Below are positions 33,506 through 58,750 of a stretch of 64,000 nucleotides of DNA, in pieces. The position numbers and the translations under genes were made by a program. Numbering within the stretch: the stretch's first letter is position 1; each line of letters begins with the position of its first letter. The DNA is from Stella humosa (GTDB lineage: Bacteria > Pseudomonadota > Alphaproteobacteria > ATCC43930 > Allostellaceae), in assembly GCF_006738645.1 (NCBI RefSeq), contig NZ_AP019700.1, forward strand, positions 1,500,001 through 1,564,000. The letters run 5' to 3'. The notes below the pieces were generated by a model. The model was given only the letters and a program-made list of their open reading frames with translations, made no database searches and was not told the DNA's origin.

Positions 33506-35884
33506 TCAGCCAGCCCGGCTCCAGATCGCCAGGCCGGGCAGGGGCCGGGCGAAGTGCTCGACCGTCCAGCCGTCCATCGCCGCCGGCATCACGTCGCGCA
33601 GGCCGGTCTCGGCGTGCCAGACCGGCACCTCGGACAGGTTGGTGTTGTTGACGACGAGGCGCCCGCCCGGCAGCACGGCCGCGACGGCGGCTGGCCATAG
33701 CGTCTGCCATACCTCGGGCCCGTTGCCATGCAGGTCGATGAGGACCAGGGCGAACCGGCGGCCGGATGCCTCCAGGAAATGCCGGCCGTCATCGACGACC
33801 AGTTCCACCCCCATGCCGTCCAGATTGTCGGCCGCACCCCGGCGGGCGATGTCGACGCTCGTCACCATGCAGCCCAGTGCCGCCAGCATGGCGGTCAGGT
33901 GTCCGCGCGAGGTGCCGATCTCCAGCACCGGCTGGCCGGCAAAGGGGCGGGCGGCGTCCAGGATGCGGGCGGTGGAGACGGCCGACGGCGACTGCCCGGG
34001 GTCGCCCCATTGGCCGCGATTGGCCAGCCAGCGGAAGCGCGCCGGCACCGGTGGCTCGCGGGTGCAGTCGGGCAGCATGCCGGCCGCCACCATGCGGCCG
34101 AAGTGCGGGTTGTGGCCGTGGAAGGCATAGCTGAAGTGATAGCCCCAGGCCCGGCCCTGGTCGCCGGCCAGGCCGAAGTCGAGCCCGTCCTGCGCGCGCC
34201 GGCCGAACGGGAACACGTTCAGCGGGATCGCCAAGGCGCCCGCCTGCTGGAAGGCGACGGCGGCCACGCCCTGCTCTTCCACGTCCCGGCGCCCGTCATG
34301 GCCGGCCGGCAGCGGCGGCCGGTCGAGGGCTGCTTCGAAGCCGGCGCGGAAGCCCTGTCCGGGCGGTAGCGAGATCAGGCCCGAATAGAGCAGGAGGGCC
34401 CGGTCCACCTGGTCCTTGTAGACGCCATAGGCGCGCGCGGGGATGCAGCGATCGTCCTGCGTCACGCGCAGGCGGTCGCGGCCCTCGCACCACGCCTCGA
34501 ACCAGTCCGGCGCGCCGGTGATCACCATGTCGCCGTCGAGTATCCATTCGGGCGCGTCCGGGCGGACGCGCTCGGGAAACCACTTCCACCAGTAGCCATA
34601 GCGGTCGGGATAGCAGCCGGCGGCGCCCAGCCGGCCCGCGAGCCAGGGGTTGTCGGCAGCGGCGACCGGCCACAGCTCCACCGGCTGCTCGGCATGGGCC
34701 AGGATCGCGCGCGCCCGCGCGCCGGAGATACCGTTGGTGCAGAGGCAATAGTCGACCCGGTCGCCGAAGAGGCGGGTGGCGAGCGCGATGGCGGCCTGCG
34801 TCACCACGTCGTCCTGCCCGTCGCCCTTGATCCAGCGGATGACCGGGCGCGTGCCGGCCGAGAAAGGGCGCCGGGCCGCCTGGCGCCGGGCGGCGTCCGT
34901 CTCGGCCATGCGCCGGGCGAGCGGCAGGTGGCCGTCCTCGGCGCGGTCCGATTGCAGGCGGGCTTCCTCCTCCAGCACCTCGGCCGGGATCGCCGTGCCC
35001 CGATGCCAGCGCTGGATGGCGGTCAGGGGAAGCCCGGCCCGCACCTCGACCTTCAGCCAGGCGACGTCGCCGGCCGCGGCAATGGCGGGCCAGGGGGAGT
35101 CCGCCGGCAGCAGGCAGAGCTGGACGAGATAGTGGCCGGGCTCGGGCGGGGCTGCCATCCATCCATCCATCCAGAAGCGCCCGCCCGGTGCCAGCGCGAC
35201 GGGCGGCGGCGTGCGACCGTCGGCGACCGGCCCGCGATCGGCCAGGCGCAGCCAGCGATGCCCGAGCCGCGCCGGGCCGTCGCCCTCCAGCGTCCAGCCG
35301 GCCAGGCCGTCATTGTCGAGGCGCAGGCGGGTCGGGAAGGTGGCGCCGCTCGGTACCCGCAGGGGATGGCGCAGGACCGTGATCCGGCCCAGCGGTCGGA
35401 ACCGGTCCATGGCGCGCTGCCGGCGATGATGCTCGAGCGGGTGGATCGCGGCCAGGTCGATGCCGGGATGGGCTGCCAGATAGTCCGCGGTGGCGAAGCT
35501 CGGGCCCGGGTCCCGGCCGTCGCGCGCGCCGTGGTGCCAATAATGCAGGGCCGGGTCCATGCCGCTGCGGGCGACGTCGGGATAGGCTTCCAGATACCAG
35601 GCCGGGTCGAACAAGGGATGCGGGCTGCGCCGGGCCGGATGGCCGCGCAGGTAATGTGCCAGCGGATCGCCGGCCCCCAGTTCGGGGTGCTGGCTGCGAT
35701 ACCAGGGCAGGTGGAAGAAGGGGTGGGGCGCGATCCCCGCCCGGACCCCGCTTGCCAGGTAGTGGCGGGCGGCCTGCGTCCGGGTCGCCAACTGCCGGCC
35801 GATGGCGGCGCAGTAGCCGCGCGCGTCGAAGAAGGGCGAGCGGGCGACGGCGTCGATCTGGGCTTCGGCGGGCTCCTGCGGCAT
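33506..35884 (-). CDS. Modular glycan protein: WYLxxxPDV repeats, beta-sandwich, glycosyltransferase-like, SAM methyltransferase
   Basis: 792 residues. Residues 50-150 contain repeats of the kind HPLFDPAWYLEAYPDVARSG, DPALHYWHHG, seen at the ends of many polysaccharide glycosyltransferases. Residues 165-285 look like a beta-sandwich of the Wzt C-terminal type. Residues 345-600 resemble a nucleotide-sugar transferase, with DGDM at 450-453 as metal motif. From about 650 there is a methyltransferase fold (VLEIGTSRGHLTAM, VTSVDIA, LVLIDLHGNG). It probably adds and methylates a sugar on a surface polymer; this is inferred from domains. Confidence 0.68.
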   Translation of the reverse strand: MPQEPAEAQIDAVARSPFFDARGYCAAIGRQLATRTQAARHYLASGVRAGIAPHPFFHLPWYRSQHPELGAGDPLAHYLRGHPARRSPHPLFDPAWYLEAYPDVARSGMDPALHYWHHGARDGRDPGPSFATADYLAAHPGIDLAAIHPLEHHRRQRAMDRFRPLGRITVLRHPLRVPSGATFPTRLRLDNDGLAGWTLEGDGPARLGHRWLRLADRGPVADGRTPPPVALAPGGRFWMDGWMAAPPEPGHYLVQLCLLPADSPWPAIAAAGDVAWLKVEVRAGLPLTAIQRWHRGTAIPAEVLEEEARLQSDRAEDGHLPLARRMAETDAARRQAARRPFSAGTRPVIRWIKGDGQDDVVTQAAIALATRLFGDRVDYCLCTNGISGARARAILAHAEQPVELWPVAAADNPWLAGRLGAAGCYPDRYGYWWKWFPERVRPDAPEWILDGDMVITGAPDWFEAWCEGRDRLRVTQDDRCIPARAYGVYKDQVDRALLLYSGLISLPPGQGFRAGFEAALDRPPLPAGHDGRRDVEEQGVAAVAFQQAGALAIPLNVFPFGRRAQDGLDFGLAGDQGRAWGYHFSYAFHGHNPHFGRMVAAGMLPDCTREPPVPARFRWLANRGQWGDPGQSPSAVSTARILDAARPFAGQPVLEIGTSRGHLTAMLAALGCMVTSVDIARRGAADNLDGMGVELVVDDGRHFLEASGRRFALVLIDLHGNGPEVWQTLWPAAVAAVLPGGRLVVNNTNLSEVPVWHAETGLRDVMPAAMDGWTVEHFARPLPGLAIWSRAG

Positions 35885-39260: not shown

Positions 39261-39713
39261 CTAGGTCGTCTTGGCCGCCGGGTGCGGCCAGCCCAGGTCG
39301 TCGACCTCGTGGATGGGGTCCAGCGTCAGCAGGTCCTGCATCTCGGTGAAGCGCTCGACCACCGGGGGCGTGAAGGGCGTACCGGCCGCCGGCAGCAGGG
39401 CGGAACGATCGGCGGTGATCGCCGGTGGCTGGTCCGATCGCAGCAGCAGGTCGTCGGCCACCAGCGCTTCGACCAGGCCGGCCACCGCCGCTGCGGCTTC
39501 GGCCGGCGCCAGCCCGTACTGCTCTTGGGTCCACTGGGTTACCTGCGCGATGGATCGGCCGCCCTCGATGCCGGCCCACATGGCCGCACCCGTGCCGCGC
39601 AGGCTGAAGTAGAAACCGCTGACCGTGTTCACCAGAACCACCTCGCCGTCGATCACGTCATGGGCGATCAGGTTGCGGTTGATGTGCAGGTAGCAGGGTG
39701 GTTCGGCGGTCAT
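39261..39713 (-). CDS. PqqD-like (RRE-fold) protein with acidic/aromatic C-terminal tail
   Basis: 150 residues from ATG 39713, with AGGAG 12 bases upstream. A GTG at 39761 overlapping the GT4 stop would add MTAEPRPPTGPQEPCR and duplicate the MTAEP start. Residues 8-92 fit a PqqD/RRE winged helix (INRNLIAHDVIDGEVVLVNT, FYFSLRGTGAAMWAGIEGG, LVEALVADDLLLR). The tail at 121-142 (FTEMQDLLTLDPIHEVDDLG then WP) looks like a separate conserved peptide. PqqD-type domains bind leader peptides of RiPPs, but no pqq or radical-SAM gene is here. Role unknown. Confidence 0.66.
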   Translation of the reverse strand: MTAEPPCYLHINRNLIAHDVIDGEVVLVNTVSGFYFSLRGTGAAMWAGIEGGRSIAQVTQWTQEQYGLAPAEAAAAVAGLVEALVADDLLLRSDQPPAITADRSALLPAAGTPFTPPVVERFTEMQDLLTLDPIHEVDDLGWPHPAAKTT

Positions 39714-39757: not shown

Positions 39758-41215
39758 TCACGATAGCGGGTCCGGCGGTACGCCGTCATCGCGCATATTG
39801 GCCAGGCGGCGGCCGGCACGCTCAACTGCGGCACCGGCTGCGATCGCGGCGGCGAGTTCGCGGGCCGCTGCCGGGATGCGACCTTCGGCGGCCAGCACAA
39901 GACCGGTCCAGTAGCGCAGCATGCCGTCGTCGGGCATGCCGTTGCGCTGGTGGAACAGCCCGCCCTCGACCCGCACCTGATCGGCGGGCAGGGCGGCGAT
40001 CGCCGCATCGGCCCGATCGTCGCCCGCGAGGCTGTCGCGAAACGCCTTTCCCCATGGCCCGAGCGCGTCGGCGAAGCGCCGGGCGGCCGGGAAGGGTGGT
40101 GGCGGCTCGGGCGACGCCGGCCGTGTCCGGACAGGGCCGGCGGTGACCTCGCCCAGGATGGCGGCGAGGCGGGCGCAGGTGCGCCCGGCATCGAACTCGC
40201 GGCGCGCGTGGCGGGCCGCACCGGCCCCCAGGCGAGCGCGCAGCCCGGGGTCGGCATGCAGCAGGGCCAGGGCCGCGCCGTACTCCCGCTCCGGCACGAC
40301 CAGGCCGGACACCTCATGCTCGACCATGGTGGGAATGCCGCCATATGGCAGGATCACCGGTGGCAGGCCGGCGGCCATCGCCTCCTGCAGGCTACGGTCG
40401 CTGCTGGAATAGGTGTCGGGCGCCAGCGGATAGCCGAACACGTCCGATCCGGCCAGGACCGGCACCAGGTCGCGGACATGGCCGCGCAGGTCGAACCGTT
40501 CCGGCGCGCCGGCTGCGGTGGCCGCCGCCGTCAGGGCGGGTTCCCCGCCACCGCCGCCGCAGAGGACGAAGCGGGCGTCTGGCAGGCCGGCCGACAGCGA
40601 CAGCGCGACGAAGTCCGGGTGGATCTTGCCGGGCCCGACAGTGCCGACATAGGTGACGACGAAGCCCGCATGGGGCACCGGCGCCAGCCCTTGCAGCGGC
40701 TCCAGGTTGGCCGGCGCGCGCAGCACCTCAGCCGGCGCCGGCAGCGTCATGCCGGCGAGTGGCGGCAGAAGGGCGGTGCAAGGCGCGGTCAGCAGGATGC
40801 GGTCGGCCCGCCGGGCGAGCGCTGGCGGCACGACCTGCGGCGGGGCGGTGCCGGCCACCTGGATCCAGGCGACCACGGGCACCCGCGGCGGCAGGCGCTC
40901 GATGAAGGCCAGCGAGGCCGGCGTCGTCCAGAAGTGCAGCAGGATCACGTCCGTCGCGGCCAGTGCGGCTGTCTCGGCCGCCGGGCCGGGCAGGAGGGCG
41001 ACGCCGCCGCGTGCCAGCTCGATCCGGATGAGGGGCGAGACGATGGCTTCCAACGGCAGGACCCGGTGCTCGGCCGCGAACCCGGCCGCCTGGAGGCGAC
41101 GGACGGTGGTGGCCATCGAGCCGGCGGCCCCGCCCGCGCGCAGATGCGGGATGACGTGGAGGATGCGCAGCGCCCGGCTGCCGCATGAGTTGCCGCCGGA
41201 TGAGTCGATTGCCAT
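39758..41215 (-). CDS. Glycosyltransferase family 4 (GT-B fold)
   Basis: 485 residues. The N-terminal Rossmann half starts LRILHVIPHLRAGGAAGSMATTV. The C-terminal donor half has VVTYVGTVGPGKIHPDFV, DLRGHVRDLVPVLAGSDVFGYP, and the E-x7-E motif region SSDRSLQEAMAAGLPPVILPYGGIPTMVEHEVSGLVV. A helical tail of about 110 residues extends beyond the GT core. Its TGA can overlap the upstream-most GTG of the PqqD-like gene. It is first in the minus-strand GT4-PqqD-GT2-GT2 operon. Confidence 0.84.
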   Translation of the reverse strand: MAIDSSGGNSCGSRALRILHVIPHLRAGGAAGSMATTVRRLQAAGFAAEHRVLPLEAIVSPLIRIELARGGVALLPGPAAETAALAATDVILLHFWTTPASLAFIERLPPRVPVVAWIQVAGTAPPQVVPPALARRADRILLTAPCTALLPPLAGMTLPAPAEVLRAPANLEPLQGLAPVPHAGFVVTYVGTVGPGKIHPDFVALSLSAGLPDARFVLCGGGGGEPALTAAATAAGAPERFDLRGHVRDLVPVLAGSDVFGYPLAPDTYSSSDRSLQEAMAAGLPPVILPYGGIPTMVEHEVSGLVVPEREYGAALALLHADPGLRARLGAGAARHARREFDAGRTCARLAAILGEVTAGPVRTRPASPEPPPPFPAARRFADALGPWGKAFRDSLAGDDRADAAIAALPADQVRVEGGLFHQRNGMPDDGMLRYWTGLVLAAEGRIPAAARELAAAIAAGAAVERAGRRLANMRDDGVPPDPLS

Positions 41216-41313
41216 GAAATTCTTCCGAAGGGGGCAAAACCGCCCGGCCGGTGGGGGCGACTATCGCTCAACCCCGGTGCGACACCCGCCCGGCCATCCA
41301 ACAGGAGACCAAG

Positions 41314-41586
41314 ATGATCAAGACCGCAATCGCCGCCGCCCTGCTTTCCGTGACCTTCGCCGGTGCCGCGCTGGCCTCGATGGACGAGGGCAAGTTCGGC
41401 CAGATGCTTGACGACGGCAAGTTCGGGCAGAACACGGACGAGGGCAAGAAGGGCTCGAACATGGACGAAGGCAAGTACGGCCGGAACCTCGACGACGGCA
41501 AGTTCGGCGCCGACATGGATGAGGGCAAGAAGGGCGCGAACCTCGACGAGGGCAAGCTCGGCGCCAACGGCATGGACAGCTTCTGA
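41314..41586 (+). CDS. Exported nonapeptide-repeat protein
   Basis: 90 residues. A clear signal peptide (1-21, cleavage after ALA) is followed by seven tandem 9-residue repeats (23-85) and a GMDSF end. The repeat consensus is hydrophobic-D-(E/D)-G-K-x-G-x-(N/D), for example MDEGKYGRN and LDDGKFGAD. Glycines and the N/D fall at RTX positions 1, 4 and 6, but K replaces the second glycine. AGGAG stands 9 bases before the ATG. It is divergent from the GT4 gene inside the glycan island. No known family is recognised; a calcium-binding, matrix or wall-linked role is possible. Confidence 0.72.
   Translation: MIKTAIAAALLSVTFAGAALASMDEGKFGQMLDDGKFGQNTDEGKKGSNMDEGKYGRNLDDGKFGADMDEGKKGANLDEGKLGANGMDSF
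41380..41568 (+). repeat. Seven tandem 27-bp repeats
   Basis: The coding repeats of the exported protein form seven direct 27-base units sharing GACGAGGGCAAG or GACGACGGCAAG cores. They vary mostly in the sixth and eighth codons of each unit, which suggests selection on the protein pattern and not recent slippage alone. Confidence 0.85.
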
Positions 41587-41617
41587 CACGCTGTCGCCGG
41601 TTGCGCCGCTGCCCCAG

Positions 41618-41649
41618 ACGACCGGCTGGCCAGACGGCTCGCCGGTCGT
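41618..41649. terminator. Bidirectional terminator-like stem-loop
   Basis: ACGACCGGC (41618-41626) pairs perfectly with GCCGGTCGT (41641-41649) between the convergent repeat-protein and GT39 genes. It is followed by TTCCC. Confidence 0.4.
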
Positions 41650-41673
41650 TCCCGCTTGCGGGCGGCGCTTCCC

Positions 41674-43233
41674 CTACGAGCCGGCCATGCAGCGGCCCAT
41701 CCAGAACCGTCGGTTGTCGGCGATCGTGCAGGCATGGATCGGCACCGACTCCTCGCACTCGTTGGGTGCGGGCCGGACCTTGATGAAGAGCACGGGGCGC
41801 TCGGCCCGGATCGCCTTCCAGTTGTCCTGTGAGCAGCCGCCCAGCTTGTGGCCGGCGTCCTTGCCGATCATGAAGGCCGGGCGCTCGGCATAGAAGGCGA
41901 TGTCGGCCATCCAGTCGTTGCCGGTGACGACGATGGGGCCGGGGGGGTAGTTCCCCTCCTTGATGTGGCGCGCGATCTCCAGCGGACGGGCCGCTTCCGG
42001 CCAGTGGGGTGCGTTCGGCATCAGGCGGCGGACGAGATAGATGGGCGCATCGCCGCGGCGGGCCGCCTCCAGCGGTCGCCAGCGCAAATCGAGGTCGATC
42101 CAGGTCGCCACGACCAGCGCCGGCATGGCCAGCGCCATGATCCAGGTCCGCCGGCCGAGCAGCCGTACCAGGACCACCAGCCCCCAGGCCGCCAGCACCA
42201 CCAGCACCGGCAGGATCGCATAGCTGTAGTAGTCGTGGACGACGTAGAGGTTGATGAAGACCGCCGGCCCGAGGGCGGCGGGCAGCGCCCAGGCCAGCCG
42301 GCGCGGATCGCTCAGCGAACCGAGACCCCCGACGACCACCGCCAGCAGCGCGGGCAGCCCCAGCGCGGTGATGCCGACGGTGATGGCGACCGCCTTCCAC
42401 GATTCGAATTGCAGGCGTTGCGCCCAGGTGCCGAAGCTCCATTCCAGCATCTCGGGCGACACCAGGCCGAGCCCGCCGACCAGGTTCTCGCGCTTCACCA
42501 GGTCGGCCCAGCCGGTCCAGGCGAAGGCCGCCATCATCGGCAGGGCGGCCGCGAACAGCAGCACGCTGACGTCCCGCAGCCGCCATTCGGACGGGACCCA
42601 GATCCGCCGGCCGATGGCATAGAGCAGGCCCGCCGCCGGCAGATAGAGGACGAAGGTCGTGACCTTCACCATCGCCGCCAGCACGCCGGCCACGGCCGCC
42701 AGCGCGATCAACGACGCGAACCGCGGCGAGCGGCTGGCGCGGTCGACCAGGTCCATGTGCAGCAGCGACAGGGCCACCACCATGGATTCGATCATGGCGC
42801 TGGTCGACCAGAAGACCGCATAGGGCAGGGCCAGCCACAGCAGCACGGCCCCGTCTGCGGCCGCCGTCGAGAAGTGGCGTTGCGCCAGCCGATGCAGCGG
42901 CCAGGCCGCCAGCAGGTGGAAGGCGAAGGACACGCCCCGGCAGGCGGCCGTCACGGCCGCGACCGAATCCTGTCCCAGCAGTTTCAGGATGGCCGCCGCG
43001 ATCGCTTGGTAGAGCGGGAACTCGAGCGGGATGGACGGGTGGGTCGTGCCGAACAGCGGCAGTGGCGGCCGCAGCAGGTCGATGCCGTCGCGCAGGTACC
43101 AATAGACGGTGAGCGCGGTCTGGGTCTGGCGGAACGCATGCTGATCGATCAGCGGCGCCGTCCAGGTGATGAAAAGATGGGCAACGGCGACCAGCGCCGC
43201 CGCGCCCAGAACGAACGACCGGGCGGAGAGCAA
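41674..43233 (-). CDS. Integral-membrane glycosyltransferase (GT39/ArnT-like)
   Basis: 519 residues with some ten hydrophobic segments and a C-terminal periplasmic part. The first loop after helix 1 holds PLIDQHAFRQTQTALTVYW, with the Asp expected for lipid-linked-sugar transferases. IPLEFPLYQAIAAAILKLLG and the PYAVFWSTSAMIES loop follow. These enzymes move a sugar from polyprenyl phosphate to a glycan or lipid on the outer face of the inner membrane. It is last in the epimerase-GT2-GtrA operon, whose GT2 could supply the lipid-linked sugar. Confidence 0.8.
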   Translation of the reverse strand: MLSARSFVLGAAALVAVAHLFITWTAPLIDQHAFRQTQTALTVYWYLRDGIDLLRPPLPLFGTTHPSIPLEFPLYQAIAAAILKLLGQDSVAAVTAACRGVSFAFHLLAAWPLHRLAQRHFSTAAADGAVLLWLALPYAVFWSTSAMIESMVVALSLLHMDLVDRASRSPRFASLIALAAVAGVLAAMVKVTTFVLYLPAAGLLYAIGRRIWVPSEWRLRDVSVLLFAAALPMMAAFAWTGWADLVKRENLVGGLGLVSPEMLEWSFGTWAQRLQFESWKAVAITVGITALGLPALLAVVVGGLGSLSDPRRLAWALPAALGPAVFINLYVVHDYYSYAILPVLVVLAAWGLVVLVRLLGRRTWIMALAMPALVVATWIDLDLRWRPLEAARRGDAPIYLVRRLMPNAPHWPEAARPLEIARHIKEGNYPPGPIVVTGNDWMADIAFYAERPAFMIGKDAGHKLGGCSQDNWKAIRAERPVLFIKVRPAPNECEESVPIHACTIADNRRFWMGRCMAGS

Positions 43234-51826: not shown

Positions 51827-54346
51827 ATGGCCGCAGTCACCTTCCAGATCGTCCATGTCGGCGATTTCGAACTCGAAACCGCCAATCTCGACCGCGCACA
51901 GCGCCTGGCGGCGATCGTCGACGGGCTGGTGCGCCAGCAGCCGGACAGCTTGGTGCTGTCGGTTGGTGGCAACTTGTTTCCCGGACCATTGCTGACGGCC
52001 GGCGGCGATCCGGCCGTCGAGGATGCCCTGACGGCGGCCGAGGATGCGCGGTTCGGACTGCCGGCCGGGTCCTTCGCCGGGCTGGCCGCCGCACCCGGGC
52101 GGGTCGACGTGGCGGTGCTGAACGCGATCGGCATCCAGGCATCGGCCCTGGGCAACCAGGAATTCGACCAGGGCACCGGCGTGCTGGCGGGTGCGATCGG
52201 GACCGACGGCGCCGGCCTGGGCGTTGCGGGCGTGCGCTGGCTGGGGGTGGAATTCCCCTATCTTTCGGCCAATCTCGACGCGTCCGGCGATGCCGCGATG
52301 GTGCCGCTGGTAACCGGCGCGATCCGCGACGGCGGCGACTTCGCGCCGGTGCCGGGTGATCTGGACGGGGCGGCGGACGGGGCAAAGATCGCGCCCGCCA
52401 CCATCCTGGAGGTGGCGGGCGAGCGCGTCGGCGTCGTCGGCTTCACCAACCCGCAGCTCGATTTCATCTCGTCGTCGGGCGGCGTCACCGTCGCCGACAC
52501 GCCCGATCTGGCGTCGCTGGCGGCCCTGCTGCAATCGGTCGTCGACGAACTGCGCGACCAGGGCATCGACAAGATCGTGCTGCTGGCCAATCTGGGCGAC
52601 GTTGCGGCCGGCAAGGCGCTGGCGCCGCTGCTGGCCGGCGTCGACGTGGTCATCGTCGACGGCAGCGACACGGCGCCGGCAGAGTATCCCGTGCGCCTCA
52701 GCGGCGCCGACGGCGACCCGGTGCTGCTGGTCTCGACGGCGGCCAGCTACAACGGCGTCGGCCGGCTCGAGCTGTCGTTCGACGATGCTGGCCGGATCGT
52801 GGCCGAAGGCGCGGCCGGCGTGGTGCCGACGACCGATGCTGCCGTCGCCGAACTGTGGGGGGCGGCCGATCCCTATGCGCCCGGCACGCGCGGCGGCGTG
52901 GTGGCCGACCTGATCGGCGCGGCGCGCGACGTGATCTTTGAGAAGGATGGCGACATCGCCGGCCGCAGCACGGTCTTCCTCGACGGCCGGGCCGAGCGGG
53001 TGACGAGCGAGGAGACCAACCTGGGCGACCTCGTCACCGATGCCGACCTCGCGCGTGCCCGCGCGATCGACCCGCTGGTGCAAGTGGCCTTCAAGAATGC
53101 GGGCGCCATCGGCGAATCGATCGGCCGCATCAGCCACGAGGCGGACGGCACCTACCGCTTCCTGCCCTCGGCCGCCAATGCCGCGGTCGGCAAGGCGGAG
53201 GGCGACATCTCCAGCCTCGACATCGACAGCGTGCTGCGCTTCGACAACCGCCTGACGACCGTCACGTTGAGCCGCGCGCAGTTGCTGGCGACACTGGAGC
53301 ATGCGCTGGCGGATGGCGTGCCCGGCCAGTTCCCCCAGGTCTCGGGGATCCGCTTCAGCTTCGATGCCGACCGGCCTTCGGGCGATCGCATCCTGTCGGC
53401 GGCCCTGGTCGACGGCGACGGCCACGTGACCGATGTCCTGGCGCGCGACGGCGAACTGGTCGGCCTGCCCGACCTGCCGGTCCGCATCGTCACCATCGCC
53501 TTCCTGGCCGAGAACGGCGACGGCTACCCGCTGGTGGATTTCATCGCGGCCGACCCCGACTTCGCCGACCGCGTCGACCTAGCCGACGGCGCCGGGCCGG
53601 TGACCGAGCAGGGGGCACTCGCCTGGCATCTGGCCGCGGAATATGCCGACACCCCGTTCGCCCAGGCCGAAACGCCGGCCGACGCCGACGGCCGCATCCA
53701 GAACCTGGACGCGCGCGCGGACGCGGTGCTGGAAGGCCCCTACGATCTCGTCGGTACGGCCATCGGCGACCATCTGGTGGGCAGCGATGCCGCCGACACC
53801 CTGTCGGGGCGCGACGGCGACGACGTGCTGGAGGGGGGCTCCGCCGGCGACCTGCTGCTGGGCGGTGCCGGGTTCGACATCCTGCTGGGTGGCGACGGCG
53901 CCGACTTCATCCTGGCCGGCGCCTTCGGCGACCGCATCGACGGCGGCGACGGCGACGACCTGTTGCTGGCCGGCAATCGCGGCACCGACAGCATCCGCGG
54001 CGGCGCCGGCAACGACCGCCTGGCCGGCGGCCAGGATAACGACACGCTGGAGGGCGGTGCCGGGGCCGACACCCTGTCGGGGGACCGCGGCGACGATCTG
54101 CTGGCCGGCGGCGACGGTGCCGACCGCTTCGTGTTCGCCGCCGGCTCGGGCCACGACGTGATCCTGGACTTCGACCCGGCGGAGGACCGGATCGTCCTGG
54201 CCGCCGGCACGACCTATGCCGTGCAGGTGGCCGACGACGGCGACGCGCTGCTGGTCCTGGGCGATGGCGGCACCGTCGAACTGCACGGATTGGCGCCGGC
54301 CCAGGTCCAGCCGGCGATCGCCGACCTGATCGTCTGGGCGGTCTGA
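51827..54346 (+). CDS. RTX metallophosphatase paralog 1 (active site degenerate)
   Basis: 839 residues, no N-terminal signal. It has a 5'-nucleotidase-type metallophosphatase domain (1-290) and a 5'-nucleotidase C domain (about 350-640: EETNLGDLVTDADLARA, GKAEGDISSLDIDSVLRF). An RTX block (about 645-780, GGDGDDLLLAGNRG, GGAGADTLSGDRGDD) and a cap ending AIADLIVWAV follow. Compared with the next gene, the metal residues D48, H119 and H267 are replaced by G48, Q111 and N255 (SVGGN, GNQEFD, LLANL). It is probably a secreted pseudoenzyme using a type I, C-terminal signal. ATG 51827 follows GGGGGAATTG. Confidence 0.82.
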   Translation: MAAVTFQIVHVGDFELETANLDRAQRLAAIVDGLVRQQPDSLVLSVGGNLFPGPLLTAGGDPAVEDALTAAEDARFGLPAGSFAGLAAAPGRVDVAVLNAIGIQASALGNQEFDQGTGVLAGAIGTDGAGLGVAGVRWLGVEFPYLSANLDASGDAAMVPLVTGAIRDGGDFAPVPGDLDGAADGAKIAPATILEVAGERVGVVGFTNPQLDFISSSGGVTVADTPDLASLAALLQSVVDELRDQGIDKIVLLANLGDVAAGKALAPLLAGVDVVIVDGSDTAPAEYPVRLSGADGDPVLLVSTAASYNGVGRLELSFDDAGRIVAEGAAGVVPTTDAAVAELWGAADPYAPGTRGGVVADLIGAARDVIFEKDGDIAGRSTVFLDGRAERVTSEETNLGDLVTDADLARARAIDPLVQVAFKNAGAIGESIGRISHEADGTYRFLPSAANAAVGKAEGDISSLDIDSVLRFDNRLTTVTLSRAQLLATLEHALADGVPGQFPQVSGIRFSFDADRPSGDRILSAALVDGDGHVTDVLARDGELVGLPDLPVRIVTIAFLAENGDGYPLVDFIAADPDFADRVDLADGAGPVTEQGALAWHLAAEYADTPFAQAETPADADGRIQNLDARADAVLEGPYDLVGTAIGDHLVGSDAADTLSGRDGDDVLEGGSAGDLLLGGAGFDILLGGDGADFILAGAFGDRIDGGDGDDLLLAGNRGTDSIRGGAGNDRLAGGQDNDTLEGGAGADTLSGDRGDDLLAGGDGADRFVFAAGSGHDVILDFDPAEDRIVLAAGTTYAVQVADDGDALLVLGDGGTVELHGLAPAQVQPAIADLIVWAV

Positions 54347-54493: not shown

Positions 54494-58750
<4,257 letters not shown>

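Follow-up and report, generated by a model that had tools for sequence, protein, structure and literature searches.

A family of small nonapeptide-repeat proteins in the genus Stella, predicted to be exported and encoded by gene copies with an unusual evolution

One of the short genes of Stella humosa encodes a row of nonapeptide repeats behind a start that resembles a signal peptide. In this work, we find that the gene belongs to a family restricted to the genus Stella as far as we have searched, with no convincing relative outside it, and that the copies of one group in this family (group B) are homogenised within each species. The gene, its export signal, the family and the orthologous positions of its members are established here by computation. 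The family matches none that is known and its evolution is unusual; its function is a prediction only, and may lie in the cell envelope.

The window gene and its product

The window is a stretch of 64,000 nucleotides from Stella humosa ATCC 43930, a species that NCBI now lists as Allostella humosa. The repeat gene in this window and the features around it are collected in Table 1. The gene caller was home-made, so the starts of the neighbouring genes are approximate. The repeat gene lies on the strand opposite to both of its neighbours.

Table 1. The repeat gene of the window, its parts, its flanking signals and its neighbours
Feature	Position	Strand	Evidence
Nonapeptide-repeat protein gene, group W copy, 90 aa + stop	41314..41586	+	Translation; orthologous position in 4/4 Stella genomes
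Predicted signal peptide, residues 1-21, putative AxA-type cleavage after ALA	41314..41376	+	Read from sequence
Seven 27-bp units, h-D-(E/D)-G-K-(F/Y/K/L)-G-x-(N/D/M)	41380..41568	+	Translation, Tandem Repeats Finder
Ribosome-binding site AGGAG	41303..41307	+	AGGAG <=20 nt from ATG in 23/23 copies
AACCG ... GGCGAC block, possible promoter core	41238..41261	+	Conserved upstream of four group W copies, alignment
Stem-loop 3' of gene, possible terminator without T run	41618..41649	+	Fold of 41580-41690, z -2.7
Divergent neighbour, glycosyltransferase group 1 (context)	39758..41215	-	PF13692 56.1 bits
Convergent neighbour, PMT_2-type membrane glycosyltransferase (context)	41674..43233	-	PF13231 30.0 bits, cut-off 26.1

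An earlier, sequence-only reading of this DNA had claimed a 90-residue product with a signal peptide and seven nonapeptides, and the translation bears this out. The signal-peptide-like N-terminus MIKTAIAAALLSVTFAGAALA is followed by S and then by the units MDEGKFGQM, LDDGKFGQN, TDEGKKGSN, MDEGKYGRN, LDDGKFGAD, MDEGKKGAN and LDEGKLGAN, with GMDSF as the C-terminal tail. The consensus proposed for these units largely holds. A length of nine residues and the residues D2, G4, K5 and G7 are found in 7/7 units of the window copy, but unit 1 ends in M rather than N or D and unit 3 starts with T rather than a hydrophobic residue. With Tandem Repeats Finder the array scores 159, 175 and 254 at periods of 27, 54 and 81, which are the top three scores of the window (the next best is 76). 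The core codons of the window copy differ by synonymous changes only (dN 0, dS 0.25). These synonymous changes, the AGGAG found before 23/23 copies and the full-length relatives in Stella genomes argue that the open reading frame is not a product of chance or an artefact.

That reading had also taken the protein to be exported. By its sequence the protein does carry a hydrophobic export signal, from which we too predict export, and the N-terminus is hydrophobic in all family members compared. A scan for the sigma-70 consensus found nothing at the conserved upstream block, and a terminator scan found none after the window gene. The sequence-only reading had recognised no family for the protein, and none was met in profile searches of Pfam, NCBIfam and the PDB; one PDB profile match (E 0.73) was put down to chance and nothing there was credible.

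The surroundings of the gene hold some further observations. The glycosyltransferase cluster includes a PqqD-like gene (39261-39713, minus strand; PF05402, 44 bits), the second gene upstream of the W copy. ATCC 35155 and the draft Stella genome have counterparts of it in much the same position. Beside the cluster, 33506-35884 (minus strand) is called as a protein of 792 residues that has no Pfam match at E up to 0.001.

The family in Stella and searches beyond it

A profile search of the genus gave matches in 4/4 Stella genomes. The S. humosa genome has nine matches at eight loci. Full family genes number eight in S. humosa, six in Stella sp. ATCC 35155, where two of the seven matches lie within one gene, and eight in S. 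vacuolata (ATCC 43931). In the draft Stella genome, seven full or fragmentary matches represent at least four genes, a count that was made partly by eye and is a lower bound because the copies are mostly at contig ends. The copies are dispersed single genes, and all 22 in the closed genomes have open frames. Signal peptides and flanks divide them into three groups, W (the window copy and its orthologues), A and B.

Repeat residues were counted over 161 9-mers, tiled in register from the first unit of 23 genes. K5 is present in 154 of these. The other seven have Q instead, and each of them is the C-terminal 9-mer of a different group B gene, at a point where one residue is inserted. G4 and G7 are each present in 153/161, and D2 in 150/161, with E in the remaining 11. 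Position 6 is Y or F in 130/161 9-mers, and N9 is found in 114/161. For the core, dN/dS is 0.20 over all 161 9-mers and 0.058 over 138, with the last 9-mer of each gene set aside. For whole units it is 0.76, and positions 1, 3, 6, 8 and 9 vary; thus the constraint is confined to the repeat core. Purifying selection acts on this core (D, G, K, G): the core differences within the window copy are synonymous and core dN/dS is low, so the repeat core is selected as protein.

Outside the genus, the family profile matched none of 39 other genomes of the order. At most 13 candidates per genome were scored in the two wider searches. The class search (385 sampled genomes) matched two Stella genomes and one draft genome (G053) only, and the phylum search (398 sampled genomes) matched no genome but that of the window. 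A scan of 84,980 species with six exact peptide patterns of the window copy, where the window's own genome and records close to it may be omitted, returned S. vacuolata as the only species. Viral contigs, phages and plasmids yielded no relative of the family. The sequence-only reading had counted it as evidence against itself if homologues were absent from related genomes or scattered with broken frames. Within the genus this did not refute it, as the frames are intact, but the homologues are restricted to the genus as far as searched.

The match in G053, a genome of the same class and the sole one outside Stella in the genome searches, consists of tandem GASIDASRV units at L012 1402-1854 (E 8.7e-5 and 8.9e-7). 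We judge it to be probably unrelated: the units are near-identical and spell other words in other frames. They lack the first Gly of the Stella unit, and a signal peptide was not seen.

Loci were compared using home-made gene calls and protein comparison of the flanks. Six loci are common to all three closed genomes, i.e. W, A1, A2, B1, B2 and B3. The W locus lies between glycosyltransferases and keeps its PMT_2-type neighbour in 4/4 Stella genomes. A counterpart of the group 1 glycosyltransferase is next or next but one to the W gene in ATCC 35155 and in the draft genome, and is absent among the four nearest called genes in S. vacuolata. A1 adjoins CoaBC and pyrophosphatase genes; A2 adjoins dnaX/SRP RNA and a GntR regulator, and its SRP RNA was confirmed by Rfam in all three closed genomes. 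B1 is directly behind GDP-mannose dehydratase/epimerase-type genes in three genomes, with the locus match on the upstream side. B2 adjoins a cupin gene and an unnamed gene (in ATCC 35155 the match is limited to genes further out). At B3 the neighbours are one gene with a beta-lactamase fold and one that is unnamed. A glycan gene is therefore the immediate neighbour at two of the six conserved loci, W and B1.

Pfam backs the names of 8/10 S. humosa neighbours scanned and has no match for two. The names CoaBC, dnaX and GDP-mannose dehydratase come from our own reading of the sequences. Further copies are A3 and B4 in S. humosa and A4 and B5 in S. vacuolata. Judged by eye, the flanks suggest that the draft genome shares A3. 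As a separate observation, the SRP RNA gene adjoining A2 is followed by a tmRNA gene about 3 kb further on (L084 9667-9764 and 6538-6851), an arrangement that is the same in three Stella genomes (also L089 and L034).

Upstream elements and homogenisation of the copies

Groups A and B share a dedicated, predicted promoter word. The word CTACCTTCTGGTCAT occurs in exact form five times in the genome, and each copy precedes a family gene (four B genes and A2). A1 has it with one mismatch. A similar word, with the core TACCTTCTGG, stands 49-77 bases before the start codon in 13 copies. When up to two mismatches are allowed the genome has 27 sites, compared with seven in a backward control. Seven of the 27 were examined; six are before family genes and one (2490517) is inside a called coding gene.

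Group B genes have a further upstream array, ATCACG...CGGTCAT...TCAC followed by GCGTGATTCGCC, which is largely conserved in 13 copies from four genomes. A strict pattern of this array has four sites in the genome, 4/4 of them before B genes, and none when read backwards. W copies have neither the A/B promoter word nor the array, and share a different short block in their alignment. The TCA[C/T] words of the array, 11 bp apart, made us consider a Pho-box, and this was rejected: the repeat found before pstS is only loosely similar. A stricter Pho-like pattern was sought in 11 stretches, among them the pst region, and its only two hits each precede a family gene.

The history of the group B copies follows the species rather than the locus. 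In a tree of upstream and signal-peptide DNA from the 11 closed-genome copies of this group, sequences group by species, with support of 99/98 for S. humosa, 94/95 for S. vacuolata and 100/100 for ATCC 35155, and AU tests reject B1, B2 and B3 as clades (p 1.1e-5, 1.9e-7 and 2.7e-6). Paralogues from the same species are 87.3-98.2% identical (15 pairs, mean 92%) and orthologous loci 72.4-81.9% (nine pairs, mean 76%), so the two ranges do not overlap. Because the flanking genes are orthologous, repeated conversion between dispersed group B copies is the simplest account of these patterns. For group A the evidence points in the same direction and is weaker. Its tree has one starred branch of five and both locus clades are rejected (AU p 5e-5 and 2e-3), and identity within a species (66.8-87.5%, seven pairs) overlaps that of orthologous loci (66.8-71.6%, six pairs).

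At the site of the S. humosa copy B4, the DNA of S. vacuolata is 585 bp shorter and that of ATCC 35155 584 bp shorter, and neither carries a family gene there. The extra DNA, whose ends are approximate, contains promoter, gene and terminator-like hairpin; a hairpin follows the gene in the three group B genes that were folded. Homogenisation with groups A and B does not extend to the W copy, which also lacks their promoter word and hence may be used differently. Taken as a whole, the family offers a clear bacterial example of concerted evolution, in which a dispersed, very small protein gene evolves in concert together with its promoter.

Possible roles and comparison with known systems

The mature chains are short, at about 42 to 75 residues, net acidic, and free of Cys and Trp (23 examined). 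In each unit a single residue, in most cases Y or F, sits between glycines (G-K-[YF]-G), and D-E, K and often R form charged spacers between it and the next. The charge-hydropathy rule puts 23/23 mature chains on the disordered side. AlphaFold2 gave a mean pLDDT of 52.5 from four sequences and 54.9 from one, with no strands, although low values from so few input sequences may reflect poor prediction and not disorder. Together these results suggest that the mature chain is probably intrinsically disordered in the cell. Gly makes up 18-24% and GRAVY ranges from -1.06 to -1.76 in 23/23 mature chains. PMC4190154 defines hydrophilins by Gly >6%, GRAVY < -1 and mean hydrophilicity >1. All 23 chains lie within the first two limits and 0/23 exceed the third (Hopp-Woods 0.55-0.86, although the scale used in that paper is possibly another). 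Codon usage of the S. humosa copies gives no sign of high expression by CAI: the eight copies have values of 0.70-0.78, compared with a median of 0.72 among the 197 other genes called; the ribosomal-protein region has 0.74. The test itself separates poorly.

Our tentative reading, which we hold as possible but short of probable, is that these genes encode an exported, disordered, hydrophilin-like envelope protein that is kept in several interchangeable copies. The W gene would be the stable, single-copy representative in a Stella-specific family whose small repeat proteins leave the cytoplasm by the Sec route. The mature protein would reside in the periplasm or on the cell surface, where it would act as a hydrated filler or protectant of the envelope that associates weakly with itself. 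The dose and sameness of the product may matter to the cell, since there are several interchangeable copies with their own promoters that are corrected against each other. That said, conversion between repeats can also occur without selection for dose. Several mutually corrected copies of a disordered, acidic repeat with evenly spaced aromatic residues, predicted to be exported and mostly behind one type of promoter, would fit a possibly abundant bulk component of the envelope, protective or structural, rather than an enzyme, a receptor or the partner of a single glycan.

Stella cells are flat six-pronged stars, and the paper announcing the genomes of these strains notes that how bacteria attain complex shapes is still unexplained (PMC6687932). 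In the Stella literature that we searched (including PMC8671808 and PMC5502672), we found no molecular study of the envelope. It is conceivable that this genus-defining family of disordered repeats with evenly spaced aromatic residues enters the envelope and is part of what shapes or stiffens the star points, its dose and sameness being kept by gene conversion within the genome. We regard this as quite unlikely, because the link joins just two genus-wide traits in one clade. A genus-wide, position-fixed, homogenised family that is predicted to be exported nevertheless gives a concrete list of candidates for studies of the Stella envelope and cell shape.

The genes could instead be a selfish cassette: a unit of promoter, gene and terminator, about 585 bp long, that spreads through the Stella chromosome by copying itself, is homogenised by recombination and has little function for the host. 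This would suit dispersed single genes with their own upstream elements, a hairpin behind the three group B genes folded, a B4 site that is 585 or 584 bp shorter and gene-free in the other two species, and the S. vacuolata copies A4 and B5, which are without counterpart among the loci compared. Yet all three closed species share the positions of six loci, purifying selection maintains the repeat core, 22/22 closed-genome frames are open, the phage, plasmid and viral collections hold no relative, and the 10 neighbours scanned with Pfam include no transposase. We therefore consider the cassette unlikely. The sequence-only reading had suggested that the protein works in the periplasm or at the surface as a partner of the polysaccharide that the glycan island around the gene makes. 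The PMT_2-type gene beside W in all four genomes, the group 1 glycosyltransferase near it in ATCC 35155 and the draft, and the position of B1 behind GDP-mannose dehydratase/epimerase-type genes in three genomes are all consistent with this. As a family-wide explanation we reject it on gene context, as no glycan gene was recognised directly beside four of the six conserved loci; the W gene, furthermore, runs opposite to both of its neighbours, and we find this kind of partnership very unlikely.

That reading had also raised an RTX-like calcium binder, and correctly stated the offset register in which the glycines and N/D fall on RTX positions 1, 4 and 6. A variant beta-roll, in which G-K-x-G-x-N loops bind Ca2+ after export and form a small solenoid, would make sense of this register and of the perfect nine-residue period, and RTX domains are described in PMC4303809 as undergoing a disorder-to-order transition. 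The position of the second Gly, however, is K in 154 and Q in seven of 161 9-mers and never Gly, and the hydrophobic position is D or E in 161/161. PF00353 has no match in 24 members at E up to 1, and two models predicted without calcium are free of strands. RTX proteins have a C-terminal type 1 secretion signal, whereas the Stella proteins start with an N-terminal signal peptide. With neither the GGxGxDxUx pattern nor the PF00353 profile found we reject RTX membership, and a calcium-binding variant seems to us highly improbable. Most doubtful of all is a precursor of secreted repeat peptides (a signal, bacteriocin-like or RiPP) whose units are cut or modified after export. A signal peptide followed by similar tandem units speaks for such a precursor, as does the PqqD-like gene near W with its counterparts in two genomes. 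PqqD-like genes occur in polysaccharide clusters too, however, the units differ within one gene, and the immediate neighbours that we examined show no recurring gene for a protease, a transporter or a modification enzyme.

Genuine RTX repeats are present elsewhere in the window. Two adjacent large proteins (51827-54346 and 54494-58750, plus strand) combine them with 5'-nucleotidase C-terminal domains; their PF00353 scores are 77 and 86 bits, and a choice-of-anchor I domain is present in the second as well.

Returning to the disordered, hydrophilin-like reading, its likeness to known systems is partial in each case. The Stella repeat shares with RTX repeats (PF00353, GGxGxDxUx) its nine-residue period, Gly at offsets 1 and 4 and N/D at 6; it differs in having Lys, rarely Gln, for the second Gly and Asp/Glu for the hydrophobic residue 8, and the protein has no profile match and an N-terminal signal peptide. 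Like collagen-like Gly-X-Y sequences (PF01391; Scl1/Scl2), it has Gly in two of every three triplets, while every third triplet is without Gly. Weak PF01391 and SclB matches were seen at E up to 1 in 23/24 members. The window copy scores 20.4 bits with PF01391 and 22.6 bits with the NCBIfam Scl model, under cut-offs of 27.2 (gathering) and 400, and in the best phase Gly is at 50-70% of every third position in 23 mature chains. Collagen membership was rejected on these scores and on this spacing.

With hydrophilins, Gly-rich and hydrophilic stress proteins that are induced by water deficit and protect against it, the family shares Gly >6%, GRAVY < -1, predicted disorder and small size. It differs in its signal peptide, its Hopp-Woods value <1 and its strict nine-residue tandem unit, and no curated family was matched above its cut-off. 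The PE_PGRS-type families of mycobacteria, for which PMC1762029 describes rearrangement between duplicated copies, are unrelated in sequence as far as searched, and the Stella family differs from them in its tiny proteins, predicted to be exported and each with its own promoter. Like them, however, it is genus-restricted, multi-copy and rich in repeats.
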